This document shows positions 4,413 to 17,271 of a stretch of 64,000 nucleotides of DNA, piece by piece. How positions within the stretch are numbered: position 1 is the first letter of the stretch; each line of letters opens with the position of its first letter. The notes beneath the pieces are model-generated. The model saw nothing but the letters and a program-made list of their open reading frames with translations, had not been told where the DNA came from and searched no databases. The translations under genes were made by a program, and so were the position numbers. Origin of the DNA: Pseudomonas azotoformans (GTDB lineage: Bacteria; Pseudomonadota; Gammaproteobacteria; Pseudomonadales; Pseudomonadaceae); contig NZ_LT629702.1 of the NCBI RefSeq assembly GCF_900103345.1, forward strand, positions 1,426,001 through 1,490,000. Direction: 5' to 3'.

Positions 4413-7409
4413 ATGTCAGCACCGGTCAGCAATGCACCCGCGATCAAGACTGTCACGAATAACGATTCCAGCGCCGAATGGGGTAACGCGGTCGATCGGG
4501 CCAAGGCCAAGGACGCCGGTATCGAATGGCAGCGCCCCAAGGATGACCACCGCTCGGCCCAAGACATCATCGACGATAGCCCGCTGCTGAAGAACCTCGG
4601 CAACCAGAGCGGAGTGAAGGACAAGTTGCGCGAACGTGTCGGTGATTTTGAACACGATGCGGACGCGGCTTATCGCGCCAACCAGGTGCTGGGCCACGTC
4701 GAGCGCTTCGATGAAAACGGTTCGCGCCTGGCTGGCAACACGATCGACAATGGTCGCGTGGACGGTTTCACCAAGGGCGGCGATGCCAGGCACGGCACCG
4801 AGGCCGGGCGCCTGCAAGACTTCGGCAAGTATGGCTGGGAGAACCTCAAGGGCGAGCTGCCGCACGCGGACACGGTGGGCCTGGACGATAAGCGCCGTGA
4901 GGCGGCGGACAAGGCTGGCATCGTCTGGGAACTGCCCGAGGGTGACAGGCGCTCGGCCCAGGACATCAATGACAATCCGCTGCTGAAAAACCTTGGCAAC
5001 CAGAGTGGGGTGAAGGATGCATTGAAGGAGCAGGTCGGCGATTTCGACAAGGACCCCAACGCGGCCTTCCGTGCCAGCCAGGTGCTCGACCGGGTGGTGG
5101 GTTTTGACGAGAAAGGTAACGCGCTGACCGGCAAGGACGTGGCCAACAGCAGTGTCGACGGCTTTACCAAGAGCGGCGAAGCGCGCCATGGCACCGAAGC
5201 GGGGCGCTTGCAGGATTTCGGCAAATACGGTTTCGAGGCGCTGGCGAAGCCCCCGGCCAATGACCAGGTCGGTAGCTACAAGGACTTTCTCAAGATCCAC
5301 CCGGAGGCCGACGCAGGTTCCAGGCAGATCGCCCAATACGGTGCAATCCTGGATGCCAGGTTCGATTCGATCCGTGGCAAGACCGGCGGCGATGGCGCTG
5401 TCACCGAACAGAACATCAAGGACTACCTCAAGCAAAACCCGCAACTGAGCAAGGAAGAGAAAGAGGCGCTCAACTTCTTCGCCCAGCCTGGCGCCTTCCG
5501 CAAGCTCGACACCGCTGGCAACAGTATTGGTGATAAGCCCGACGGCAAGGTCAGTCGCGACGACGTGCAGGCCTGGCTGAAGACATCCGCACCCACCGAT
5601 GCCCGGAGTCTTGCCAGCCTGATCACCGACGTGGCCACCGGCAACGTCACGGGCAAGGTCGACACCCGCAAGCTGGACAAGGACATCTTCGAGCATCCGG
5701 AAAAGTACACGGCCGAGCAGAAGGCCGCGGTGCTGCTGGAACTGCAAGAGGCGCAGAAACTGGTGGTCGACGGCGCCAACGCCGGGGTCTGGAACAGCGA
5801 CTATGGCAAGGTTTCCATCGCCAACCGCTCGGGCGCGATCTGGGAGCCGCAAAAGCTGCTGCAAGACATCAACGACCACATGGCCATCTTGCAGGGCGAC
5901 AAGCCAACTGCCGAGTACATCAAGAACGCCGGCGACCAGGCGGTGAAGACACTGTTTGAAGAGAATCCCGGCCTGAAGGACGCCGTCACCAAGACCTATG
6001 AGGACCAAGTCAAGTCCGGCAAGGCCCTGGACGCCGCGTGGGACGCCAACACCAAGGACGGCAAGACCGACCAGCACGCAGCACTGGCGGGTTTTTATGC
6101 CACCGCCACCAGCCTGCAGTCGATTCTGGGTATCGACGATGCCAAGGCGATCCAGGGCGCGGTCGCCAAATCCACGCATAACGAAGACTTCAAGACCTTC
6201 TACAAGGATCAGCTGGCCAGTGGCGACCGCCTGCGTGAGTTGCTCAAGCACAACACGCCCGAGCAGGCCGCCTCGGAGTTCAGCCTGGAAGTAGCGCTTT
6301 ATAACGCCGCGCTCGATCCGGCCTTCACGGCCCAGCATGACCAACAGCTCAACGAGAATTTCTCCAGCATCGCCCAGGAGAACCTGTTCAAGGGCGCCAG
6401 CTTCGACGACATCAAGACGGCTTTCGGCAAGGACGGCGGCGCCGAGCTGGATGAAGACAAGGTCCGCACGTTGATCGACCAGATGCGCCAGGAAAGTCCC
6501 GAGCTGCTGCTGAACCAGGACGGCACCGTGGCCACCACCGACCAGGTCCTGGCGGGTTTCCGTGGCAACTGGGACCTACTCCGCCAGGGCACCAAGGCCC
6601 TGGACAAAATGGGCAAGTTGTCGGACTTCGACCCCAATGGCGGCGCCAAGGGCGCCTACGGCAGCGGTGTGCTGCATGGTGTAAGCGGCCTGTTCCTGGC
6701 GGGTGTCACCATTGCACGCGGGGCGCAGAGCGGTGGAAAGCTGACCACGCGCAACATCGTCGACATCACCACCGGCTCCGTGCAGACCACCACCGTACTG
6801 ATCGAGGGCGGCACCAAGGGCTACCAGGAACACCTCGCCAAGTCGATCAAGAACGGTGAGCAGACCCTCAAGGATATGAAGGACGGCAAGGTCATGCTCG
6901 ACCTGCTCGATGAGGTCAAGGACAACGTCAAGGACGGCAAGCATGCCAAGGTCGTGGCGAAGAACTTCGAGGAAGCCGCCAAAGGTATCGGCGGCCTGGC
7001 CGGCATCGTCGCCGGGGCGTATGGCATTTTTGATGGCGTCAACGCGTTGCGCCGGGGCGACAAGCTGACTGGAGGCTTTGGCATCACCGCAGGCTCGCTG
7101 GGTGTGCTGGCCGGCAGCGCCTCGGCCGCGGAGGGCGGCCTGGGCTTACTCGGGGCGAACTTGCCGCGCTTTCTCCCGGGCCTGGCGGCCACGGCGGGCG
7201 TGCTGGGCTTCCTGGCGGCTGGCGTGGCGGTACTGGCGGCTATCGTGCCTGGGCTGGTCAAGGAAGGGCAGGCGCAGGTCAAGTCGGACAAGTTCGGCGA
7301 GATATTGGGGGATTCAATCGAGCGTTATGGCATCGATGGGGTCAAGGACGGGACCATTGCGGATATTCCCACCAAGGATTGGCCAGGCGGGGAGCAGTGG
7401 ACGTCGTGA
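4413..7409 (+). CDS. HrpK/HrpF/NolX-like type III translocon-type protein
   Basis: This is a 998-residue protein with no signal peptide. Residues about 33-143 and 167-275 are a tandem repeat. Both copies carry RSAQDI, PLLKNLGNQSGVKD, VDGFTK and HGTEAGRLQDFGKYG. An EF-hand-like stretch (GDKPDGKVSRDDVQAWL) lies near residue 370. Hydrophobic segments cluster in the C-terminal quarter, at about 750-770 and 857-955. Two N-terminal repeats plus C-terminal membrane segments is the layout described for Xanthomonas HrpF and Rhizobium NolX, and Pseudomonas HrpK proteins are annotated similarly. Such proteins insert in host membranes for type III secretion. No secretion genes lie in the window, so this is an orphan. 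The start is supported by AGGAG 7 bases upstream. Confidence 0.65.
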   Translation: MSAPVSNAPAIKTVTNNDSSAEWGNAVDRAKAKDAGIEWQRPKDDHRSAQDIIDDSPLLKNLGNQSGVKDKLRERVGDFEHDADAAYRANQVLGHVERFDENGSRLAGNTIDNGRVDGFTKGGDARHGTEAGRLQDFGKYGWENLKGELPHADTVGLDDKRREAADKAGIVWELPEGDRRSAQDINDNPLLKNLGNQSGVKDALKEQVGDFDKDPNAAFRASQVLDRVVGFDEKGNALTGKDVANSSVDGFTKSGEARHGTEAGRLQDFGKYGFEALAKPPANDQVGSYKDFLKIHPEADAGSRQIAQYGAILDARFDSIRGKTGGDGAVTEQNIKDYLKQNPQLSKEEKEALNFFAQPGAFRKLDTAGNSIGDKPDGKVSRDDVQAWLKTSAPTDARSLASLITDVATGNVTGKVDTRKLDKDIFEHPEKYTAEQKAAVLLELQEAQKLVVDGANAGVWNSDYGKVSIANRSGAIWEPQKLLQDINDHMAILQGDKPTAEYIKNAGDQAVKTLFEENPGLKDAVTKTYEDQVKSGKALDAAWDANTKDGKTDQHAALAGFYATATSLQSILGIDDAKAIQGAVAKSTHNEDFKTFYKDQLASGDRLRELLKHNTPEQAASEFSLEVALYNAALDPAFTAQHDQQLNENFSSIAQENLFKGASFDDIKTAFGKDGGAELDEDKVRTLIDQMRQESPELLLNQDGTVATTDQVLAGFRGNWDLLRQGTKALDKMGKLSDFDPNGGAKGAYGSGVLHGVSGLFLAGVTIARGAQSGGKLTTRNIVDITTGSVQTTTVLIEGGTKGYQEHLAKSIKNGEQTLKDMKDGKVMLDLLDEVKDNVKDGKHAKVVAKNFEEAAKGIGGLAGIVAGAYGIFDGVNALRRGDKLTGGFGITAGSLGVLAGSASAAEGGLGLLGANLPRFLPGLAATAGVLGFLAAGVAVLAAIVPGLVKEGQAQVKSDKFGEILGDSIERYGIDGVKDGTIADIPTKDWPGGEQWTS

Positions 7410-7419
7410 AAACAGGAGG

Positions 7420-7437
7420 AGGGGGGGAAGCCCCCCT
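7420..7437. terminator. GC hairpin between convergent genes
   Basis: AGGGGGG (7420-7426) pairs with CCCCCCT (7431-7437) around a GAAG loop. It lies 11 bases after the stop of the HrpK/HrpF-like gene and faces the end of the oxaloacetate decarboxylase gene. There is no T-run, so it is at best a weak or bidirectional stop. Confidence 0.45.
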
Positions 7438-7453
7438 CGCTCCGACGTTGTCT

Positions 7454-8323
7454 TCACTCTTTAACATCCATGAACTCTTCCGCCCACGCCACGTAGCTTT
7501 CCGGCAGCGTGTAGGTATGCGTCAGCTCGGTGGCGCTGAGGTTATCAGTGCTGTGGGTCAACTGGCGTTGGGCACGCAGGCTGTCATACGTCGCCTTGAT
7601 CGCGGCGAAGTAAGCCCCGTGACCGGCAACCACTATGCGCACGCCAAGGCTGGCCAGACGCTGGGCATCATTCAGTTTGGGGTTGCCGTAGGTCACCAGC
7701 ATCAGTGGCACCGTCAGGTTTTCCGCGATCTTCTCCAGGTGCTCGAAATCGGCCACACCGACCATGCAAATCCCGTCGGCGCCGGCCTTCTGGTAGGCCT
7801 GGGTGCGTTCGATAACGGCTTCGGTCGGCAACACGCCGGCATTGGTCCGGGCAATGATCGACAACTCCGGATCGACACGTGCTTCCAGCGCCGCGCGGAC
7901 CTTGCCGATGCCTTCTTCAATGGAGATCAGGTCGGTGGACTTGCGCCCGAACTGCGCCGGCAGCAACGTGTCTTCAATGGTCAACGCGGCCACACCGGCA
8001 CGCTCAAGCTCTTCGACGGTGCGCATCACGTTCAGGGCGTTACCGTAGCCGTGGTCGGCGTCGGCGATGAACGGCAACTGGGCAACGCGGCCGATGCGGG
8101 TGGCTTGCTCAACGAACTCACTCAGGGTGATCAACGCAAAATCGGGTGCGGCCAATACCTGCAACGAGGCGACGGAGCCACCGAGGATGCCGACTTCAAA
8201 ACCCAGGTCAGCGGCGATACGCGCCGACATCGGGTCAAAGACGGAAGCGGTTTCAACGCAGGTTGGGGTGGCGAGCAATTCACGGAAGTTGCGGCGCAGG
8301 GCTGAGTGAGAAATCTTTGGCAT
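7454..8323 (-). CDS. Oxaloacetate decarboxylase, isocitrate lyase/PEP mutase superfamily (PA4872 type)
   Basis: The 289-residue protein has the alpha/beta-barrel superfamily signatures in order: GGSVAS near residue 50, the metal-binding DADHGYGN at about 90, [16 protein letters not shown] and GADGICMVG. Its length and overall sequence match PA4872 of P. aeruginosa, which was shown to decarboxylate oxaloacetate to pyruvate with Mg2+. The Cys-containing catalytic loop of true isocitrate lyases is absent, which supports the decarboxylase rather than a lyase. The enzyme is cytosolic and not biotin-dependent. It stands alone on the minus strand, so the sequence shows no operon or pathway context. 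Confidence 0.87.
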
Positions 8324-8476
8324 GGGCTTTCCTGGTTCTGGTCATCGTCTTGTGACGATCAATGTCTATTCGTGGTGGGGCCAGATTAACATGCGGGCGA
8401 GGGGGAGATGATGACGTTTCAGCATTAGGGCAGGGGCTGGTGCATGGAGCGTGGGTTTACGGTTTGGGGGTGGACA

Positions 8477-8495
8477 GGCGCCCGGGGCGGGCGCC
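8477..8495. terminator. GC-rich hairpin after the helicase gene
   Basis: GGCGCCCG (8477-8484) and CGGGCGCC (8488-8495) form an 8-bp stem with a 3-base loop, 10 bases beyond the stop codon of the minus-strand helicase gene. No T-run follows on the minus strand. It is likely to stabilise or terminate that transcript. Confidence 0.4.
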
Positions 8496-8505
8496 GTCCT
8501 TTCAT

Positions 8506-11500
8506 TCATACCTGTTCTTGATAGCCTTTACGCAGTTTCTCCGCGATCAGTTTCTCTGCTTCACGCAACGCGCGTTCGGGGTTTTCCAAGGATTTGATCA
8601 GGGTCTGGCCCTTGGTGCCGATGCGGCCGAAACTCACCACCACCTCGGCCTCGGTGACACCAATACGCCAGAACTTATTGGAGTTGCCTTCGCCATAGGT
8701 GAACTCGCGCATCGACGGCGCCGCTTCAAGGGTTACCGCTGGCTCGGCGTCGATCTCGACGGTTTCCACGACCTGTTCCAGCGCTGGCAGTGCAGGCGCT
8801 TCTTCACCCCGAAGCAGCGCTTCGATGCGCTTGAGCACTTCCTCCGGATCGCGCAGCCAGTCATGGCTGAGCACATCGATGATCTTCCAGCCGAAGCTGC
8901 GCAATACCGTCGGGCGGAAGATATAACGCTCACGCACGTCAGTCGCCGCTGCCGTGTCGCTGTCGAGCAGCACCCCCAGACTGAAGTATTCACCGCTGGC
9001 GTCGCTGATCGCCAGGTCACAGCGGAACTGTGAACGCCCGACATACTCCTGCACCGAATGCCCGCGTTGGCGCAACGCGACGGCGAGGGCGCTGCGCAGC
9101 TTGTCCTTGGGCAGGCCGACGGCAAAGGACTGCTTGGCGCCCGGGTTGAGGTTGGCCAGGATGCCCTGGGAGCGCGGTGCATCGCCGCTGGCACTGGCCT
9201 GGGCAAATTGCAGGAACGCGCGCAATGCAGCGGCGCCGTCGTTGTGGGTGTTGGTGATGGCCTCGGACTCAATGCTGGAGACAATCGCCATGCGCTTGCG
9301 CGCACGACTGAAGATCACGTTAAGGCGTTTTTCCCCGCCGCGCTGGTTGATCGGGCCGAAGTTCATCAGCATCTTGCCGTTCGGTCCCGGCGCGTAGCAG
9401 ATGCTCAGGATGATCACATCGCGCTCATCACCCTGCACGTTTTCCAGGTTCTTGACGAACAGGCCATTGAACTGCCCGGCATCTTCACGCACGTACTCAC
9501 GCTCAAGGCGTGTGGCAAAGGCCGAATCATTGCTGGCCAGGTCTTCCAGGGCCTGCTCGATGGCGCCTTGCTGGGCCTCGGAAAAGGCCACGATGCCCAG
9601 GCTCAGGCCGGTCTCGCGTTGCAGCAGTTCACGCACCAGGTTGGCGATGTAGCGGGCTTCGGCCAGGTTGCTGCGGCTGAGGTAGACGCCATCGCTCATC
9701 TTCAAGAAGCTGATCGGGCTGTCGAGCAGCGTGTCGGCGCCCTGGATCACGGCCTGGGCGTCGCTGGAGTCGAGGGCTGCGTGGGCCGGGGCAGGGCGCT
9801 CGATGCGCCGGTCGGGAATGGTGATCAGCCGCCCTTCGTAGAACGCTGCGTTGGAGAAACTGATCAGCGCCTCGTGGCGACTGCGGTAGTGCCAGGCCAG
9901 CAGGGTCGCCGGCAAGTTGCGTGCGGCCTGGCTCAGCAGGCTGTCGGCATCGAGGTTGATTGCGATCTGTTCCCCGTCCTCCATGGCGATCAGGTCGTTA
10001 TCGTCCGGGTCACCGGCACTGGAGAAGAAGTTGGTCGGTGGCAACTGCATCTCGTCGCCCACCACAATCACCTGCTGCGCACGGCTCAGGGCGGGCACGG
10101 CTTCTTCGCTGGGGATCTGGCTGGCCTCGTCGAAAATCACCACGTCAAACAGGTCCGGGGTCAAGGGCAGGGTGTCGGACACCGACAACGGGCTCATCAG
10201 CCAGATGGGCTTGAGGTCGTTGATCACCCGGCCACTGTCGCCACTGGCCATTTCGCGAATGGAGCGATAGCGCATGGTCTTGCCCAACTCATGTTCCAGT
10301 TCGCGACGGCCCTTGGCATAGGCTTTCTTGAACTCGCGGGCCTGGGCATCCAGCTGGGTCACTGACATCGCCGATTGCTTCACGTGCTCCAGAAAACGCT
10401 GGTGCAGGGTGGCGCTGAGCACGTGAGCATTGCTCTTGAGCAGGTTGCTTTCGGCCTGGCTGACCTGGCGCGCGGCCAGGCTCAAGGCCGGGCCATCGAA
10501 GCGGGCCATCTGCGGGTTGGCGCGGTACAGGCGGGTCAGGTTTTCCTGGGCAATCAACCCGTCCAGCACGGGTTGTGGCAAAGCATACTGTTGCACGACC
10601 GCCAGGCAGCCGGGGTCGGCCTGGTGCAGCTCGTTGAGCAGGGGCAGGGTGTCGGGCAGTTCGTCGAGCTCTTCACGCAGGTCGCGCAGGTACTCGGCCA
10701 GCTCGGCCAGGCTTGGCGCGGCGTCGAACACACACTGTTGGGCAACCAGCTCGGCCAGGCGCGCGATGGGTTGGCGCAGGCTGGCTTCCTGGCGCACACC
10801 GGGCAAGCTGCTCGGGTTGCCCCGCAGGCCTTCGACCCACTTGCGCAACAACGGTGATGCGCTCAGTTGCTGCAGCAGGGCGTGCAGATTGTGCACGAAC
10901 AGGTCGATATCCTGGATGCCGTAGCGACCTTGCAGGCGTTGCTGCTCGGCGTGCAGCTCGGCGGTGGCGCGGTGTTCACCGGCCAGGTTGTCGAGCACAC
11001 TGCGCAGGCTGGGGCGAATCGCGTGCTGACTGAAGTCGTAGCGGCGTTGAAGTTCGCCCCGCAGGCGCCACCAGCCGGGTTGCAACCAGCGCAGCAGCGA
11101 GCCTTCCTGGCGCTGTACCTGCTCCAGGGCAGCCTGGGTGTCCTGGGGCTCAAGTTTCTCGCGCCAGTGGCGGGTGGTTTCACGCGCGTTGTGTTGCTGC
11201 ACGGCCAGGGCCTGCAAGGCGGCCTGTTCAGCGTGCAGCGCTTGGGAACCCGTTGAGCCAGGTTCCAGCAGGTCGAGGTGAGCCGCCAGGTTGGCGTCGG
11301 TCAGTTGCTCGGCGGCTTGAGTCAGCACGCACGCATCCGTCAGGCGCGTGTCACCGGACAGCAGGCTGGAGGATGACTCCAGGAACGACTCGACGCTGTC
11401 CATCAGCCCACTGGCTTGCTCCAGAAACGCCTTGAGCTGGCCGTAGGCATGCTCGTGGGTGACCAGGCTTGAGGCCAGGTGGCTGAAGGGGTGACGCGCA

Positions 11501-13944
11501 AAACTGTCGACGCCGAACCGTTCCTTGATGGTCTGATACAACCGGCCGGTCAGCTCCTGTTGTGCCTGCCAGTGCCGCCATTCGGGCAAGCGCTCCAGCG
11601 CTTCGGGCGGCAGCTGTGCAGCAACGGGTGGCAGCTCGATCAAATGACAGACCAACTCACGCACCGAGCAGGCCAAGGACTCCGGCACCCCGGCCATCGC
11701 CTGTTCAAAGCGCTCTATCAGGCCCAGTTGCTGGCTCAGGGTCGCCAGTGTAGCGTCACGCCGCGCTTGCAACTGCACCGATTGGGCGTCGCCGGCGATC
11801 CAGCGCTCATAACACTCGCGCAGGTTGCCCACGAAGGCTTTCTTGTCCGTCTGGGAGTCGTGAATCAGGCAGCACAATTCGCCCAGTTCACTCTGTTGCA
11901 GGCGATGGAACACTACGTCCAGCGCCGCACGCTTTTCACACACAAACAACACGCGCAGCCCGCGCGCGGCGTAGTCGGCGATCAGGTTGGTGATGGTCTG
12001 GGACTTACCGGTGCCCGGCGGCCCCTGAATGATGAAGTGACGCCCGGTTCGGGCCAGGCTGACAGCGGCGTTCTGCGTCGCGTCACCGGCCACCACGTTC
12101 CACTGGTCGGGCAGCGGGATCGGGTCTGGCGTCTGGACTTCGACGTCTCGCGGCTCAATCGAGAACATCCGGTCAAACGCTTCGTTTTGCGCGGGCTCAT
12201 CGATCAGCTGTGCGTAGTCACGCACCAGCGACATCTTGCGATAGTTGAAGTTGGCCAGGGTCACCTGGGTCAGGTCGATGTCCCAGGCGTAGCGGTGCCC
12301 CTGATTCTCGGGCATGGCGAAGGTGCTGTTCTCGGTGCTGCTGGCGACCATCTGCGGATGCTGGTTGCGCAGCACAGGTTTGGCGCCGACGGCCAGGCGC
12401 AACGGTAACTCACTGGGCAGCACCTTTTGCTGGAACAATTGCAGGCCCAGCGGGCGGTAGTCTTCGCGGTCGTAGCTGAAATCCGGCCTGACCAAGGGCA
12501 TCGCCGAACGCTGACGGGCGCGACGGCGCTGGAAATGGTGCAGATGCTGCACGGCCTTCTGGTGGATCAGTTCGATTTGCGGTTTGCTTTGCAGGCGCAA
12601 CTCGACGCCGGGCTCGGTCAGTTTGATCTGGCGCGCAATATCGGCGTGGATTTCCTCCAGGGACGTCTTTTGCAGGTCGACGGTTTCCGGCAACTGGATA
12701 TCGTAGAGCTGGCGCAATTGATGCCGCAGTACCGGGTTGAACTCAGCCTCGGTTTCATCGCACTGCAACATGAACTGGTCGCGCACGCCCTTTTTGCGGC
12801 TCAGTTCCACCGGCAGCCAGAGCAGGGGAGTGACGATGCGCTCCTCCGGCGTGTCCTTGAGGTTGTGCCAGCGCATGAAGGCCACGACCAGGCGCAGGTT
12901 GCTGAAGCCGAACTCGGCACGGTCGCGGCGGGTTTCCTGGATGATGCGTTCCAACGACGCCTGCAACCAGGTCTGGTCTTCAAACCGCAACCATTGCTGC
13001 AGGCCAACCGGTTTGCCGCTCAACACCTGCTCGGAGAAGCCACCGAAGGTAGGCTGCCAGGTGCACAAGGCTTCGGGGCGGATACTTTCAACACGCATCA
13101 CCAAGGGCACGCTGGCCACGGTCAAGTTGACGTTGGCTTGCGTCGGCCGGAAGTACAGCAGGCGATTGCGTCGCGAAAGGTCAAACAAGCGATTACGCAG
13201 ATGCTCCAGCACCACGGTGCGCCGTGAAGCCGGGCCTTCGGCCTGGGCCAATACACGCTCGACATCCAGGCTGGCCGGCTGTTCGCGCCAGGATTCCAGG
13301 CGCCGCACCAGTGAGCCGACATCCGTGGCGCGCTCATGGCGGTTCAGCTCGGTCATCTCAACGATCAGATTGGCCAGCACCGGGTTGAGCCGGCCGTTGA
13401 GCTGGAACAGGTTACGGCGATGCCGGGCAAAGGCCTTGAGGTCGTTGATGTCGGCAAAATCCAACCCGCACGCCAGGCAAGCCAGGAACTGGCCGAGCTG
13501 GAAAATATCGGTGATCTCGTCGTGGTGCCCGAGGCGATGCTCCCAACTGTGCAGGTCGGTGAGGAACACCGGGTGGTCAATGGCCTGATGCGGGTCTTCC
13601 TGGACTTGCAGGTCGGTCACGGCCACGCCACTTTCCGAATCCCGGGTCAGGCGGACCTTGCCGACAATATTCAGTGCCGACTCCGGATTAGGCTGCACCT
13701 GCTTGATCGCTTCCAGCGCCAGCCGTGGCGGGACGCCCTCTGGATTGCGCAGTTGCAGCGTGCGTTCCGGCCCCTGCAGCACATCGAGATAACTGAGCTG
13801 GGCGACACGCCCCAGTTCATGCAATTGCGCAACCTGGCGCAGTAAGGGCAGCGCCAGGAACAGCACATCGTCGATGGGGACGGCGACGCCATCGTGGGTC
13901 TGCAGCAATTGCGTGAAATTGATGGGTTGGGTTATCGGGTCCAT
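8506..13944 (-). CDS. Giant DUF4011 / SF1 helicase / nuclease-like / WGR protein
   Basis: This 1812-residue cytosolic protein is modular. Residues about 1-225 look like a degenerate protein kinase (ITDIFQLGQFLACLACG, then NRHERATDVGSLVRRL). About 245-600 is DUF4011, with HLRNRLFDLSRRNRLLYF. The helicase core has Walker A GPPGTGKS at 641-648, Walker B IFDEASQIP, GDEMQLPP and QGDERDVIILS with a late RARKRM arginine motif. Near 1600-1705 a PD-(D/E)XK-like segment holds CDLAI and RSFGWKIIDV; the acidic/lysine pair looks altered (LGVLLDSD). The end is a WGR domain (WRIGVTEAEVVVSFGRIGTKG). Its start overlaps the end of the upstream M48 gene by 13 bases. DUF4011-helicase-nuclease proteins are reported in phage defence, but the role here is inference. 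Confidence 0.85.
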   Translation of the reverse strand: MDPITQPINFTQLLQTHDGVAVPIDDVLFLALPLLRQVAQLHELGRVAQLSYLDVLQGPERTLQLRNPEGVPPRLALEAIKQVQPNPESALNIVGKVRLTRDSESGVAVTDLQVQEDPHQAIDHPVFLTDLHSWEHRLGHHDEITDIFQLGQFLACLACGLDFADINDLKAFARHRRNLFQLNGRLNPVLANLIVEMTELNRHERATDVGSLVRRLESWREQPASLDVERVLAQAEGPASRRTVVLEHLRNRLFDLSRRNRLLYFRPTQANVNLTVASVPLVMRVESIRPEALCTWQPTFGGFSEQVLSGKPVGLQQWLRFEDQTWLQASLERIIQETRRDRAEFGFSNLRLVVAFMRWHNLKDTPEERIVTPLLWLPVELSRKKGVRDQFMLQCDETEAEFNPVLRHQLRQLYDIQLPETVDLQKTSLEEIHADIARQIKLTEPGVELRLQSKPQIELIHQKAVQHLHHFQRRRARQRSAMPLVRPDFSYDREDYRPLGLQLFQQKVLPSELPLRLAVGAKPVLRNQHPQMVASSTENSTFAMPENQGHRYAWDIDLTQVTLANFNYRKMSLVRDYAQLIDEPAQNEAFDRMFSIEPRDVEVQTPDPIPLPDQWNVVAGDATQNAAVSLARTGRHFIIQGPPGTGKSQTITNLIADYAARGLRVLFVCEKRAALDVVFHRLQQSELGELCCLIHDSQTDKKAFVGNLRECYERWIAGDAQSVQLQARRDATLATLSQQLGLIERFEQAMAGVPESLACSVRELVCHLIELPPVAAQLPPEALERLPEWRHWQAQQELTGRLYQTIKERFGVDSFARHPFSHLASSLVTHEHAYGQLKAFLEQASGLMDSVESFLESSSSLLSGDTRLTDACVLTQAAEQLTDANLAAHLDLLEPGSTGSQALHAEQAALQALAVQQHNARETTRHWREKLEPQDTQAALEQVQRQEGSLLRWLQPGWWRLRGELQRRYDFSQHAIRPSLRSVLDNLAGEHRATAELHAEQQRLQGRYGIQDIDLFVHNLHALLQQLSASPLLRKWVEGLRGNPSSLPGVRQEASLRQPIARLAELVAQQCVFDAAPSLAELAEYLRDLREELDELPDTLPLLNELHQADPGCLAVVQQYALPQPVLDGLIAQENLTRLYRANPQMARFDGPALSLAARQVSQAESNLLKSNAHVLSATLHQRFLEHVKQSAMSVTQLDAQAREFKKAYAKGRRELEHELGKTMRYRSIREMASGDSGRVINDLKPIWLMSPLSVSDTLPLTPDLFDVVIFDEASQIPSEEAVPALSRAQQVIVVGDEMQLPPTNFFSSAGDPDDNDLIAMEDGEQIAINLDADSLLSQAARNLPATLLAWHYRSRHEALISFSNAAFYEGRLITIPDRRIERPAPAHAALDSSDAQAVIQGADTLLDSPISFLKMSDGVYLSRSNLAEARYIANLVRELLQRETGLSLGIVAFSEAQQGAIEQALEDLASNDSAFATRLEREYVREDAGQFNGLFVKNLENVQGDERDVIILSICYAPGPNGKMLMNFGPINQRGGEKRLNVIFSRARKRMAIVSSIESEAITNTHNDGAAALRAFLQFAQASASGDAPRSQGILANLNPGAKQSFAVGLPKDKLRSALAVALRQRGHSVQEYVGRSQFRCDLAISDASGEYFSLGVLLDSDTAAATDVRERYIFRPTVLRSFGWKIIDVLSHDWLRDPEEVLKRIEALLRGEEAPALPALEQVVETVEIDAEPAVTLEAAPSMREFTYGEGNSNKFWRIGVTEAEVVVSFGRIGTKGQTLIKSLENPERALREAEKLIAEKLRKGYQEQV

Positions 13945-15134
13945 GTGTCGACCTCCGCTTTGAGCGCGCGAACGATCGGGTCGAGCTCACGTTTGGGTAA
14001 TTTGATATCGCGCTTGAGCACATTGATAAAGTCGTCGGCACTGCCGAGTTTCTTGGCGGTGCGCGCCGCGTGCAGCAAGGCCTCATCCCGCAGGTCGCGG
14101 TCCACCAGGCTCAGGTCGAGCATGATGAAGTGCAGGTATTCGTGGATGCTGGCGTCGACACGCTCGGCATTCAGCGTGCCCAGGTCCAGCGTGGTTTCGT
14201 TGTCTTTCCAGTCCGGAAAGAATCCACGTACCTGATTGAGCACCACCTCCGATTGCAGCACGGAGGTGCCGATGAAGCTGGCGATAAAGCTGCGGGTGAG
14301 GGCGGTCAGCTCGACTTGGCCGGTCACATCCAAGCGATAGAGCGACAACGGCCCGCGCAACCGGCCATGCAGCCAATTGTCGGTATCCGGCACCTGCCGC
14401 CACCAGTTGTCCACCGCCTGGGAGCGCAGAAACGTCTCCGGGTGCGAAACGCCTTGGGACAACGGCGCGTCCTTGCCATCCAGCTCCTGGGCCTGCTTCA
14501 GATAACTGGCGGCATCCACGCTGACGATCCCGGTGTGAATCTTGACCAGCGAGGTAATCGACGCTTCCGGCCCGCCGGCCACCAGGGCTGCGCCTCGGTC
14601 GGCATAGATTTCGGTGTGCAGGCTATATAAGCGTGCGGTCTGTTCCAGACTCGGAGGCGTATTCATATCGGCCATGGCGTGATTGAGAACCCGCTCGGCG
14701 GTGAGATAGTCGCCACCGTGCTCAGACCATAAGCGGTAATGGGCCAGCTCATGCCCGAGCAGCGCCAGTAACTCCTGAGCGTCGAGCCGTTCAAGAATCG
14801 GTCCGTAGAACACCACGTGCACTTCACCGGCCAGGTAATACAGGCTGGCATTCATCGCGGCGTCGCCGGCTTGGTAAAGGGTCGCGGGCGCCTGGATCTG
14901 CAAGCATTGCAGCGCCGTCTCACAGGCCTGATAGGCCTGCGGGTGGGTCTCGGGGCTCAGGCGATAGGTGTCTCTGAGCAACTGCGCGCGCACATCCTGG
15001 GCATGTTCCTGCTGAACGCCCAGAGACGAGGCCCATTCCCACACGACAGGCTCATGGGTTTTCAGGTAATCGACCACACGCTGGTGGTAAGGCAAGGGGG
15101 TCAGGCCGCTGATATCCAGCGCGGGGGTACTCAT
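13932..15134 (-). CDS. Cytosolic M48-type zinc metallopeptidase
   Basis: The 400-residue protein has HELAH at residues 128-132, the zinc-binding HExxH helix, followed by TEIYADRGAA at 174-183 with the glutamate expected as third ligand, and SHPETFLRSQ near 240, which resembles the M48 substrate-cleft motif. Unlike HtpX or Ste24 it shows no membrane segments and no signal peptide, so it should act in the cytoplasm. Its stop codon lies 13 bases inside the following helicase gene, which implies translational coupling and a joint function. Nothing in the sequence tells its substrate; cleavage of the giant partner or of a toxin are open options. Confidence 0.8.
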   Translation of the reverse strand: MSTPALDISGLTPLPYHQRVVDYLKTHEPVVWEWASSLGVQQEHAQDVRAQLLRDTYRLSPETHPQAYQACETALQCLQIQAPATLYQAGDAAMNASLYYLAGEVHVVFYGPILERLDAQELLALLGHELAHYRLWSEHGGDYLTAERVLNHAMADMNTPPSLEQTARLYSLHTEIYADRGAALVAGGPEASITSLVKIHTGIVSVDAASYLKQAQELDGKDAPLSQGVSHPETFLRSQAVDNWWRQVPDTDNWLHGRLRGPLSLYRLDVTGQVELTALTRSFIASFIGTSVLQSEVVLNQVRGFFPDWKDNETTLDLGTLNAERVDASIHEYLHFIMLDLSLVDRDLRDEALLHAARTAKKLGSADDFINVLKRDIKLPKRELDPIVRALKAEVDTWTR

Positions 15135-15338
15135 CGTTCAAACGTCCTTGAGAGGATACGGCTCCATAGACTGCGACTGTGCAGCAGAGACTTGGGCTGG
15201 CATCCCGGTATCAGTGATCGGCAATAAACGCGGAGCATACCTAGGGGGTAGGAAAATTACTTGTGAAAGTGCTTGGATGCGTGGCCAGCTGCAAATGCAG
15301 TTAGAGTGGTGATCATTATCTTGACCGCTGTGTGAAAA

Positions 15339-15950
15339 ATGAATGCTCCGCTTTTTGTTTCTCTGGATGGCCCCAAAGGCACCGGCAAAACCACGCTACT
15401 GGAGGCCGTCACGGCTGCACTGAGGGCGGACAACAAGAAAGTCATCCGGCTTTGCGAGCGAAAAAGCGATCCCTACAGAGGGGAAACCATGACCCTGGTG
15501 AATGAACTTGCCAGAAATCCCTCACGGGATCTGGAATGGGCTGTGTGCGAGCGCTTTGCCGAGAGTCGCAGTTGGATCTCCGGGAACGTGCTGACTCAGC
15601 AGCCGTTGGGCAGCATTATCCTGATTGATCGCTGGTATCCGTCTGAGGCTGCGTTTCGACATACGATTCCGTTTGCAGAGATTCTGCAGTTGAACCTGGA
15701 GCGAAGTGTACGAGTGCCGGATCTGCATGTCGGTGTTATCACCGCGCCGGATATTTCATGGGCGAGAGCAACGGCACGATCACGAGGATTGGGCGGCACT
15801 GTGATCCAGAAGTATGCAGAGCATGTTGCATGCACAGAGATGTTCGAGCGGGCGGTTGTGGGTCAGGGCTGGGTGTTGTGTCGTAATGAAGGTGCGATTG
15901 AAGAGGCAGTGAAGCAGGTGGTTGTTGAGATTCGTAAAGTGGCCGGGTGA
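15339..15950 (+). CDS. P-loop thymidylate-kinase-like protein
   Basis: This 203-residue protein starts MNAPLFVSLDGPKGTGKTTL, a clear Walker A of the nucleoside monophosphate kinase type. It continues with a dTMP-kinase-like LIDRWYPSEAAFRH segment (equivalent to the DR-Y/F-S motif) and an RATARSRGLGG lid-like region. Housekeeping tmk proteins have DRY and a different lid, so this is a diverged relative that could act on a nucleotide, a modified base or another small substrate. It is divergent from the M48-helicase operon with about 200 bases between the starts, and is visibly less GC-rich than its surroundings, which suggests recent acquisition. Confidence 0.6.
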   Translation: MNAPLFVSLDGPKGTGKTTLLEAVTAALRADNKKVIRLCERKSDPYRGETMTLVNELARNPSRDLEWAVCERFAESRSWISGNVLTQQPLGSIILIDRWYPSEAAFRHTIPFAEILQLNLERSVRVPDLHVGVITAPDISWARATARSRGLGGTVIQKYAEHVACTEMFERAVVGQGWVLCRNEGAIEEAVKQVVVEIRKVAG

Positions 15951-15958
15951 CACGTGTA

Positions 15959-16013
15959 GCGTAATACATAATTTAACATAATATACATTATGCGTAATAT
16001 GCTATTGCGTAAT
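15959..16013. repeat. AT-rich patch with three GCGTAAT direct repeats
   Basis: GCGTAAT occurs at 15959, 15992 and 16007 in a very AT-rich tract that also holds CATAAT/ATTATG inverted halves. It starts 9 bases after the P-loop kinase gene. It may be the edge of an inserted segment or a weak terminator. Confidence 0.45.
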
Positions 16014-16060
16014 CAGGGGCAGTGCCCGTCAGATTTCAACAGGCAAAACCCCTGTCAGGT

Positions 16061-16810
16061 TCAAACCTGAGCAAAGCCTCCATCGACAAACATTTCACTG
16101 CCCGTCATGAAGCTGCTCTCATCCGATGCCAGGAACAACGCGGCGGCTGCCACTTCTTCAGGCTGACCGATACGGCCCAATGGCACCTGCGCCGTCATGT
16201 CGTCGATGATCGCATCCTTCTGGCCAGTACCTGACAATGCCGAGTCCAGACCCGGTGTCGAGATCGGTCCTGGTGAAAGTACGTTCACGCGAATGCCGGT
16301 GCCTTTGAGATCCAGCGCCCAGCTTCTGGCGAAATTACGCAGCGCCGCTTTTGTAGCGCTGTACACGCTGAACGCCGGTGTACCCATCACGCCGGTGGTT
16401 GACCCCGTCAGGATCACGGAACTGCCGGCCTGCATCAGTGGCAAGGCTTTTTGCACGGTGAACAGCGTGCCTTTGACGTTGATGCCGAACGTGCGGTCGA
16501 ACGATTCTTCGGTGATCGACCCGATCGGTTGGAAATCCCCCAGGCCTGCATTGGCAAACAGTATGTCAATACGGCCCTTGGCGGCTTTGACCTGTGTGAA
16601 CACACGGTCCAGGTCGTCCAGCTTGGCAATGTCGGCCTGGATGGCGATGGCGTCAGGCCCGATCAGCTTGAGCGCCTTGTCCAGTTCTGACTGGCGACGA
16701 CCTACAATCACCACCTGTGCGCCTTCAGCTGCAAAGCGAATCGCGGTGGCCAGGCCGATGCCGCTGTTGCCGCCGGTAACGACTGCAACTTTTCCGTTGA
16801 GCTTGCTCAT
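16061..16810 (-). CDS. SDR-family NAD(P)-dependent oxidoreductase
   Basis: This is a 249-residue classical short-chain dehydrogenase. The cofactor motif TGGNSGIG sits at residues 12-19, NAG at about 88-90, the catalytic Ser in LTGSTTG and the Tyr-Lys pair in YSATK near 155. A PG-PISTPG turn and the C-terminal VDGGFAQV are typical. The acidic residue that would fix NAD is not evident after the second strand (VGRRQSE), so NADP use is likelier. The gene is divergent from an HxlR regulator 101 bases away. Such pairs usually respond to quinones or aldehydes, so the enzyme probably reduces a reactive carbonyl; the substrate is unknown. Confidence 0.88.
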   Translation of the reverse strand: MSKLNGKVAVVTGGNSGIGLATAIRFAAEGAQVVIVGRRQSELDKALKLIGPDAIAIQADIAKLDDLDRVFTQVKAAKGRIDILFANAGLGDFQPIGSITEESFDRTFGINVKGTLFTVQKALPLMQAGSSVILTGSTTGVMGTPAFSVYSATKAALRNFARSWALDLKGTGIRVNVLSPGPISTPGLDSALSGTGQKDAIIDDMTAQVPLGRIGQPEEVAAAALFLASDESSFMTGSEMFVDGGFAQV

Positions 16811-16869
16811 GATGACTCCAAAAAAGAATGTTGAGGCGCAACTCTAGATCTGCTCTATTCTTTTGAATA

Positions 16870-16891
16870 GTATGCACCTTTTAGTAAGTAC
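16870..16891. promoter_or_regulatory. Candidate HxlR operator
   Basis: The 22 bases run from GTATGCAC through TTTT to AGTAAGTAC and form an imperfect inverted repeat with a GTACTTAC-like half. They sit between the divergent SDR and HxlR starts, 21 bases before the regulator's ATG. HxlR proteins commonly bind such GTA-rich palindromes; the assignment is inference. Confidence 0.4.
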
Positions 16892-16911
16892 CCTTTGGAG
16901 GCACCTCAATC

Positions 16912-17271
16912 ATGGCCAATAACTCATTCAATTGCGGGCTCGAGGCGGCCCTGGCGGTGATTGGCGGCAAATGGAAGCCGCTGGTGCTGTTCAACCTGGC
17001 GCAGAATGTTCATCGATATGGAGAATTAAGGCGCGCGATTGGTGGTGTGACCGATAAGGTGCTGATCCAGCAACTCAAGGAGTTGGAGCGCGATGAGATC
17101 ATTTTTCGCGTGGATTTCCAGGAAATACCGCCCAAAGTCGAGTATTCCCTGACGCCGTTCGGGGAGTCCCTGGCGTCGGCGTTGGGTGGGTTGTGCCAAT
17201 GGGGTACGCAGCATATGCAAACGGTAGAGCGCATCGCCGCACGGCGGACGTCTGCCCTCTCCCAGTCCTGA
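16912..17271 (+). CDS. HxlR-family winged-helix regulator of the divergent SDR gene
   Basis: This is a 119-residue regulator with the full HxlR core: CGLEAALAVIGGKWKPLVLF with the N-terminal Cys at residue 8, then YGELRRAIGGVTDKVLIQQLKELERDEII as the helix-turn-helix and KVEYSLTPFGESL as the wing. Compact size and the single early Cys match the redox- or electrophile-sensing branch of the family. A GGAGG ribosome site lies 10 bases upstream of the ATG. Divergent arrangement with the SDR gene implies that it controls that gene and itself from the shared 101-base gap. Confidence 0.9.
   Translation: MANNSFNCGLEAALAVIGGKWKPLVLFNLAQNVHRYGELRRAIGGVTDKVLIQQLKELERDEIIFRVDFQEIPPKVEYSLTPFGESLASALGGLCQWGTQHMQTVERIAARRTSALSQS

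Follow-up and report, generated by a model that had tools for sequence, protein, structure and literature searches.

A conserved M48 peptidase and DUF4011 helicase gene pair in Pseudomonas azotoformans suggests an immunity-like device with a protease as its weapon

Lit, the peptidase of the e14 prophage, is triggered by the Gol peptide. Extracts of two papers describe it as a cytosolic HExxH peptidase, a T4-triggered killer that cleaves EF-Tu (PMC9712102), and as a carrier of the HExxH...HPx4R pattern (PMC7950410). In Hachiman, a sensor helicase controls an effector (extract of PMC12278908); protease-activated nucleases also exist, with further enzyme classes expected by the authors who describe them (extract of PMC12799240). 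Hhe (NCBIfam NF042953, PADLOC PDLC02194) is a DUF4011 helicase-nuclease antiphage protein. Here we analyze a pair of overlapping genes from Pseudomonas azotoformans, located in a 64,000-nucleotide stretch of contig NZ_LT629702.1 (positions 1,426,001 to 1,490,000; the window), which encode an M48-family peptidase and a DUF4011 helicase of 1812 amino acids (aa), called the giant below. Together, the features of the pair suggest an immunity-like device whose weapon has changed from DNA cutting to protein cutting.

The gene pair and its distribution

Positions in the window, strand and content of each feature are as follows.

13932-15134 (-): peptidase gene, first gene of the pair, encoding a soluble M48-family metallopeptidase of 400 aa
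14739-14753 (-): HELAH, the HExxH zinc-binding motif, peptidase residues 128-132
14424-14444 (-): HPETFLR, the HPx4R motif, peptidase residues 231-237; the M48 active-site plug as described for BepA
13938-14153 (-): C-terminal helical part, possibly TerB-like, peptidase residues 328-399; helices in the structure model
8506-13944 (-): giant gene, second gene of the pair, 1812 aa
13270-13944 (-): pseudokinase, C-lobe only, giant residues 1-225; from fold searches
12715-13191 (-): DUF4011, giant residues 252-410; from Pfam
9274-12084 (-): SF1 (superfamily 1) helicase core with a long variable insert, giant residues 621-1557; from Pfam and motifs
8818-9087 (-): MTES_1575 (PD-(D/E)XK-like), probably catalytically dead, giant residues 1620-1709; from Pfam and a lost Glu
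8512-8706 (-): WGR, accessory, giant residues 1747-1811; from Pfam
8431-15305: swapped stretch, at which two close relatives carry an unrelated 2.1-kb gene pair; from flank matches

An earlier prediction, made from the letters of the window (the original prediction), had an HExxH peptidase gene overlapping by 13 bases the gene of an 1812-residue protein, and the coordinates of the open reading frames agree with it, the overlap lying at 13932-13944. No RNA family was found at 7000-17000 of the window, and no promoter or terminator patterns were found at 15000-15500.

On gene content, the peptidase and the giant are a conserved, obligate two-gene unit. Among 199 Pseudomonas genomes, the peptidase is present in seven and a full-length orthologue of the giant in the same seven, one of which (G079) has both genes in pieces; the next giant-like protein in these genomes is only 31% identical. 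A second genus, around G919, has both genes, adjacent to each other, in the same 17 of 81 genomes, with one copy split by contig ends. The two genera combined thus hold 24 genomes with both genes and none with one alone. From 84,980 species genomes scanned, the best 80 of 155 peptidase relatives were kept; their loci are in alpha-, beta- and gammaproteobacteria and in one verrucomicrobial metagenome-assembled genome. At all 80 loci kept, the giant directly follows the peptidase, and because the two-gene arrangement recurs in this way it is not due to chance. Within this set the giant is broken at one locus (L086) and cut by a contig end at another (L091); in genome G199 (L146) it is in two frames. 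Pairwise distances of the peptidase and of the giant are correlated (r = 0.97 for 77 loci, 0.95 for 51 dereplicated loci), a correlation to which shared ancestry contributes. Seven regions with distant M48 peptidases contain no such giant, so M48 peptidases in general are not paired with it; conversely, 19 regions of related helicases outside the pair, covering 19 of 47 such relatives, contain no such peptidase. The spread of the pair is patchy, with 3 of 398 genomes in a sample of the phylum and 3 of 150 in a sample of the family around G919.

Peptidase, helicase and nuclease parts

Residues 92-244 of the peptidase match Peptidase_M48 of Pfam at 34.4 bits (cut-off 20.3). The M48 fold test on the window peptidase was positive, although Foldseek by itself gave no M48 fold match at E <= 0.001. 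Since the 80-locus set was found with search patterns containing the HExxH or the ADR motif, motif counts on it would be circular; the 120 peptidase homologues listed, none of which was picked by the HExxH, ADR or HPx4R motifs alone, were therefore used instead. Among these, HExxH is kept in 120/120, the third zinc-ligand Glu motif E..ADR in 119/120, and the HPx4R plug, the self-inhibiting element described for BepA (extract of PMC7950410), in 120/120. With its catalytic and plug motifs intact, the protease looks alive. A membrane-like stretch is absent from the window peptidase (best 19-residue Kyte-Doolittle mean 1.15), which together with HELAH upholds the earlier assignment as a soluble HExxH enzyme. 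The C-terminal helical part is possibly TerB-like: the profile of a fused M48-TerB family matches residues 349-403 of an orthologue (L191), the same region as the C-terminal part of the window peptidase, in which Pfam finds no TerB match. One homologue, P0026, gives weak SprT-like matches (E 1.1e-4, below the gathering score).

All Pfam domain matches of the giant are above their gathering scores. The helicase is covered by AAA_11, from residue 621, and AAA_12, at 1335-1557, and SF1 motifs I, II, III, V and VI are nearly invariant among aligned giants. WGR is absent, by match coverage, from 14 of the 80 loci and is therefore not essential to the design. The original prediction had listed DUF4011, an SF1 helicase, a PD-(D/E)XK-like part and WGR; all four are present as folds, but the putative catalytic Glu of the PD-(D/E)XK-like part is gone. 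It had missed the kinase-like C-lobe at residues 1 to about 225. Fold searches, on which the kinase assignment rests, match this N-terminus to the C-lobe of protein kinases (for example, 1mru from residue 91). The N-lobe is not matched, and HRD and DFG motifs were not seen when the alignment was inspected by eye; lacking these marks of an active protein kinase, the N-terminus is a pseudokinase. Compared as profiles, the N-terminus and a set of kinase-fused proteins match weakly (probability 27%, E 0.00067), and a search with the N-terminus profile through 137 other DUF4011 or fused proteins gave no relative (best E 0.44). The kinase-fused proteins, L173-L176 of Pseudomonas genomes G003, G060, G070 and G072, are single chains of 2030-2122 aa with a protein-kinase domain, DUF4011, helicase and MTES_1575; their catalytic loop reads HRD, but the DFG position reads GFG (Pfam run on L173 and L174). 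Two M48-free DUF4011 helicases, L178 and L181, have an N-terminus that is transglutaminase-like by eye.

The MTES_1575 nuclease of the pair giants is probably dead. In helicase relatives outside the pair this domain reads D...(V/I)ECDG, and the Glu, whose catalytic role is inferred from the PD-(D/E)XK pattern, is present together with the Asp in 47/47 by alignment; a strict motif pattern scores it in 42/47, missing the four kinase-fused proteins and L168. In the pair giants the Asp (Asp1643 in the window) is kept in 78/79. The putative catalytic Glu is kept in none of the 79; its position is Leu in 74 (Leu1659 in the window), Val in 2, Phe in 2 and Gln in 1, so that the residues expected of an active PD-(D/E)XK nuclease appear to be incomplete. 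L086, L091 and L101, whose reading frame ended early, were left out before these counts.

Peptidase and helicase also occur on one chain. Two gammaproteobacterial genomes contain single open frames, of 1953 and 1896 aa, that run from M48 through a TerB-like part (below the Pfam gathering score) to DUF4011, helicase and MTES_1575. When a database was queried with the first 560 residues, 183 proteins were returned; DUF4011, helicase and MTES_1575 domains are present in the 120 listed, most of which have a length of about 1850 to 2300 aa. Natural fusions of this kind mean that peptidase and helicase are physically linked. Among those listed, HExxH is kept in 113/120 and the HPx4R plug in 112/120. 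As these 120 include partial proteins whose ends are possibly misaligned, the nuclease counts are to be read with that in mind: the Asp position is Pro in 92/120 and the putative catalytic Glu is present in 3/120. The seven fusions without HExxH are P0163, P0167, P0171, P0177, P0181, P0187 and P0222, six of them alike (GREIGH-type). Two other M48 fusions, P0182 and P0197, have an additional exonuclease domain (PF00929).

A tree built on the helicase core joins the giants of the pair to M48-free relatives and places the fusions beside the kinase-fused proteins (split support 100/97; 99/95 in a second tree). Because the two M48 forms group apart, the M48 label needs two changes on this tree, and the forms are united in 0/200 bootstrap trees. 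The approximately unbiased (AU) test does not reject a single origin of the M48 link (p 0.148). Two independent origins are thus favoured by the trees, with the AU test leaving room for one.

The original prediction had joined a protease, a DNA motor and a nuclease. The link between protease and motor stands, given the pairing and the natural fusions; a nuclease is not supported, and because the putative catalytic Glu is lost in 79/79 pair giants, protease-plus-motor is the better description.

Readings of the unit and its surroundings

We give a probability of roughly 45% to the reading that the giant is a DNA-surveillance helicase scaffold that licenses, or unplugs, the protease, and that the effector has moved from the nuclease to the protease. 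The giant would bind to abnormal DNA (invader DNA, for example) and move along it, holding in a complex the M48 peptidase, whose own HPx4R plug would keep it inactive. An ATP-driven rearrangement on the DNA would unplug the peptidase, the unplugged enzyme would cleave a host or invader protein, and growth or replication would stop, which may amount to an antiphage role. The C-terminal nuclease, the ancestral-type effector, would be without catalysis and at most bind DNA. More doubtful is a wider generalization, that in the DUF4011-helicase class a plugged M48 protease has replaced the nuclease as the killing part, possibly on two independent occasions, the dead nuclease remaining as a DNA grip and the dead kinase as a regulator of a DNA-gated protease. 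Were this so, a single obligate module in bacteria would couple the sensing of nucleic acids straight to proteolysis, and the present annotation would misread two-gene M48-DUF4011 systems as nucleases. The class would provide a natural experiment, protease present and nuclease dead versus protease absent and nuclease intact, and the single-chain version a form that can be expressed and assayed.

The surroundings of the pair indicate mobility. In two close relatives without it, the flanks match up to position 8430 of the window and again from 15306; since other genes lie between matching flanks, the site swaps its content. The replacing genes, named by eye, are a KaiC-like ATPase and a response regulator (L203 7771-9596, L204 7697-9522). 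Genes flanking the pair in the window recur beside it in only some other Pseudomonas loci. Other observations weigh against a surveillance device that acts through its protease. The 267 dereplicated neighbours (three genes per side, 80-1500 aa, from a purpose-written gene caller) include few PADLOC matches (8 and 24 families), a count made without a control set; each matching family does so through one member only, and many of the matches are to redundant methyltransferase models. No copy was present on the plasmid records, phage records or viral contigs searched. In Variovorax (11 loci) the position of the pair is constant, flanked by core genes that include dnaE and the gene of a penicillin-binding protein, which makes it look more like a resident gene there. 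The seven listed fusions without HExxH do not fit a protease effector because their nuclease site is dead too, so no effector is evident in them. Giants mostly lacking an M48 neighbour and lying in a housekeeping context would have spoken against the original prediction of a defence candidate; the outcome is mixed, as no giant without the peptidase occurs in the two genera, and the sampled neighbours are mostly ordinary genes and not defence genes. The pair thus shows mobility, with no defence-island signature seen among the neighbours sampled.

These surroundings bear on the main rival, the clearance of proteins from DNA, in which the helicase would track DNA and the peptidase would digest covalently bound or stuck proteins, whether in DNA-protein crosslink repair or in stripping of a phage protein shield. 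By the SPRTN/Wss1 principle, a helicase with an HExxH peptidase is the layout expected for DNA-protein crosslink clearance. The housekeeping neighbourhood with its few PADLOC matches and the weak SprT-like matches of P0026 are consistent with clearance, and the dead nuclease is explained equally well, as it and WGR would merely hold the DNA; we regard this rival as unlikely. The same ordinary neighbours and the fixed chromosomal place at the 11 Variovorax loci would also suit a protease complex that is resident, serves stress or quality control, takes no part in conflict and has spread by ordinary exchange of genes, and the M48 peptidases BepA and HtpX are quality-control enzymes (extract of PMC7950410). 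However, the giant, a helicase that combines DUF4011 with a nuclease fold and is kin to the antiphage proteins Hhe and ProA, suits nucleic-acid conflict better. In close relatives the site of the pair is occupied by other genes, and we regard a resident complex as rather improbable.

A reading in line with the original prediction, in which the peptidase cuts the giant or another target and so switches on the nuclease, has precedents in the protease-activated pro-nucleases of HamMAB, Avs and Canu with their trypsin-like and caspase partners (extract of PMC12799240). These known pairs, however, employ other nuclease and protease folds; the putative catalytic Glu is missing from all 79 pair giants, most fusions lack the PD-Asp as well, and the fusions hold protease and helicase in one chain. 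Such a switch is very improbable.

Several neighbouring genes were also noted. A dTMP-kinase-like gene (15339-15950), close to the pair at several loci of Pseudomonas, was considered as a third partner, but it has matches in 100/199 Pseudomonas genomes and is therefore a passenger. A 998-aa open reading frame at 4413-7409 (+) of the window matches T3SS_HrpK1 of Pfam (E 1.1e-30) and encodes a type III secretion translocator-like protein. A gene convergent to the giant, with a product of about 577 aa, recurs in nine alphaproteobacterial loci (L069, L071, L072, L079, L083, L092, L096, L103 and L110); the L069 and L110 copies have no Pfam match.

Comparison with known systems

No paper on an M48 peptidase paired with a DUF4011 helicase was found in a literature search that left subscription journals mostly outside, nor was a description of a DNA-gated protease in bacterial immunity, or a paper on ProA or PDC-S37. 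Like Hhe, the giant combines DUF4011, an SF1 helicase and a C-terminal nuclease-like region; unlike Hhe, it has lost the nuclease Glu, begins with a pseudokinase and has an obligate M48 partner. Its score against the Hhe model is 479.7 bits (cut-off 2000), in line with the earlier view that a coupled M48 peptidase and WGR lie outside the description of Hhe. Across the helicase and nuclease part, the best-scoring named models are the antiphage protein ProA (NCBIfam NF058533) and the PADLOC candidate PDC-S37. Against ProA the giant scores 693.2 bits and five fusions 514-559 bits, all below the cut-off of 1500. Against PDC-S37, a model without a stated cut-off, the giant scores 687.5 bits, with the best stretch at model positions 215-1343 of 1550; this model fits M48-free relatives better (L178, 1243 bits; L189, 1813 bits).

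Shango consists of a TerB-like protein, an ATPase and a DEAD/DEAH helicase (extract of PMC10250203) and so shares with the present unit a helicase and, judging from the fused relatives, a TerB-like part. It differs in having three genes, with no peptidase described in that extract, and Pfam detects no TerB in the window protein. BepA and ZMPSTE24/Ste24 have fold and motifs in common with the window peptidase; they are membrane or periplasmic proteins, whereas the window peptidase is a soluble protein with a genetic link to a helicase. Lit is closer in being a cytosolic HExxH...HPx4R peptidase and a phage-triggered effector, but it is a single protein without a helicase partner. The nuclease-protease pairs of Hachiman/Avs and Canu likewise link a protease with an immune helicase or ATPase that senses DNA (extract of PMC12799240). 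By Pfam, neither protein of the window contains an MBL-type pro-nuclease or a trypsin-like or caspase protease. In those pairs killing falls to the nuclease, which a trypsin-like or caspase protease activates. The present unit combines an M48 protease with an apparently dead nuclease and, if it works as proposed, would be the reverse of the known systems in which a protease activates a nuclease.
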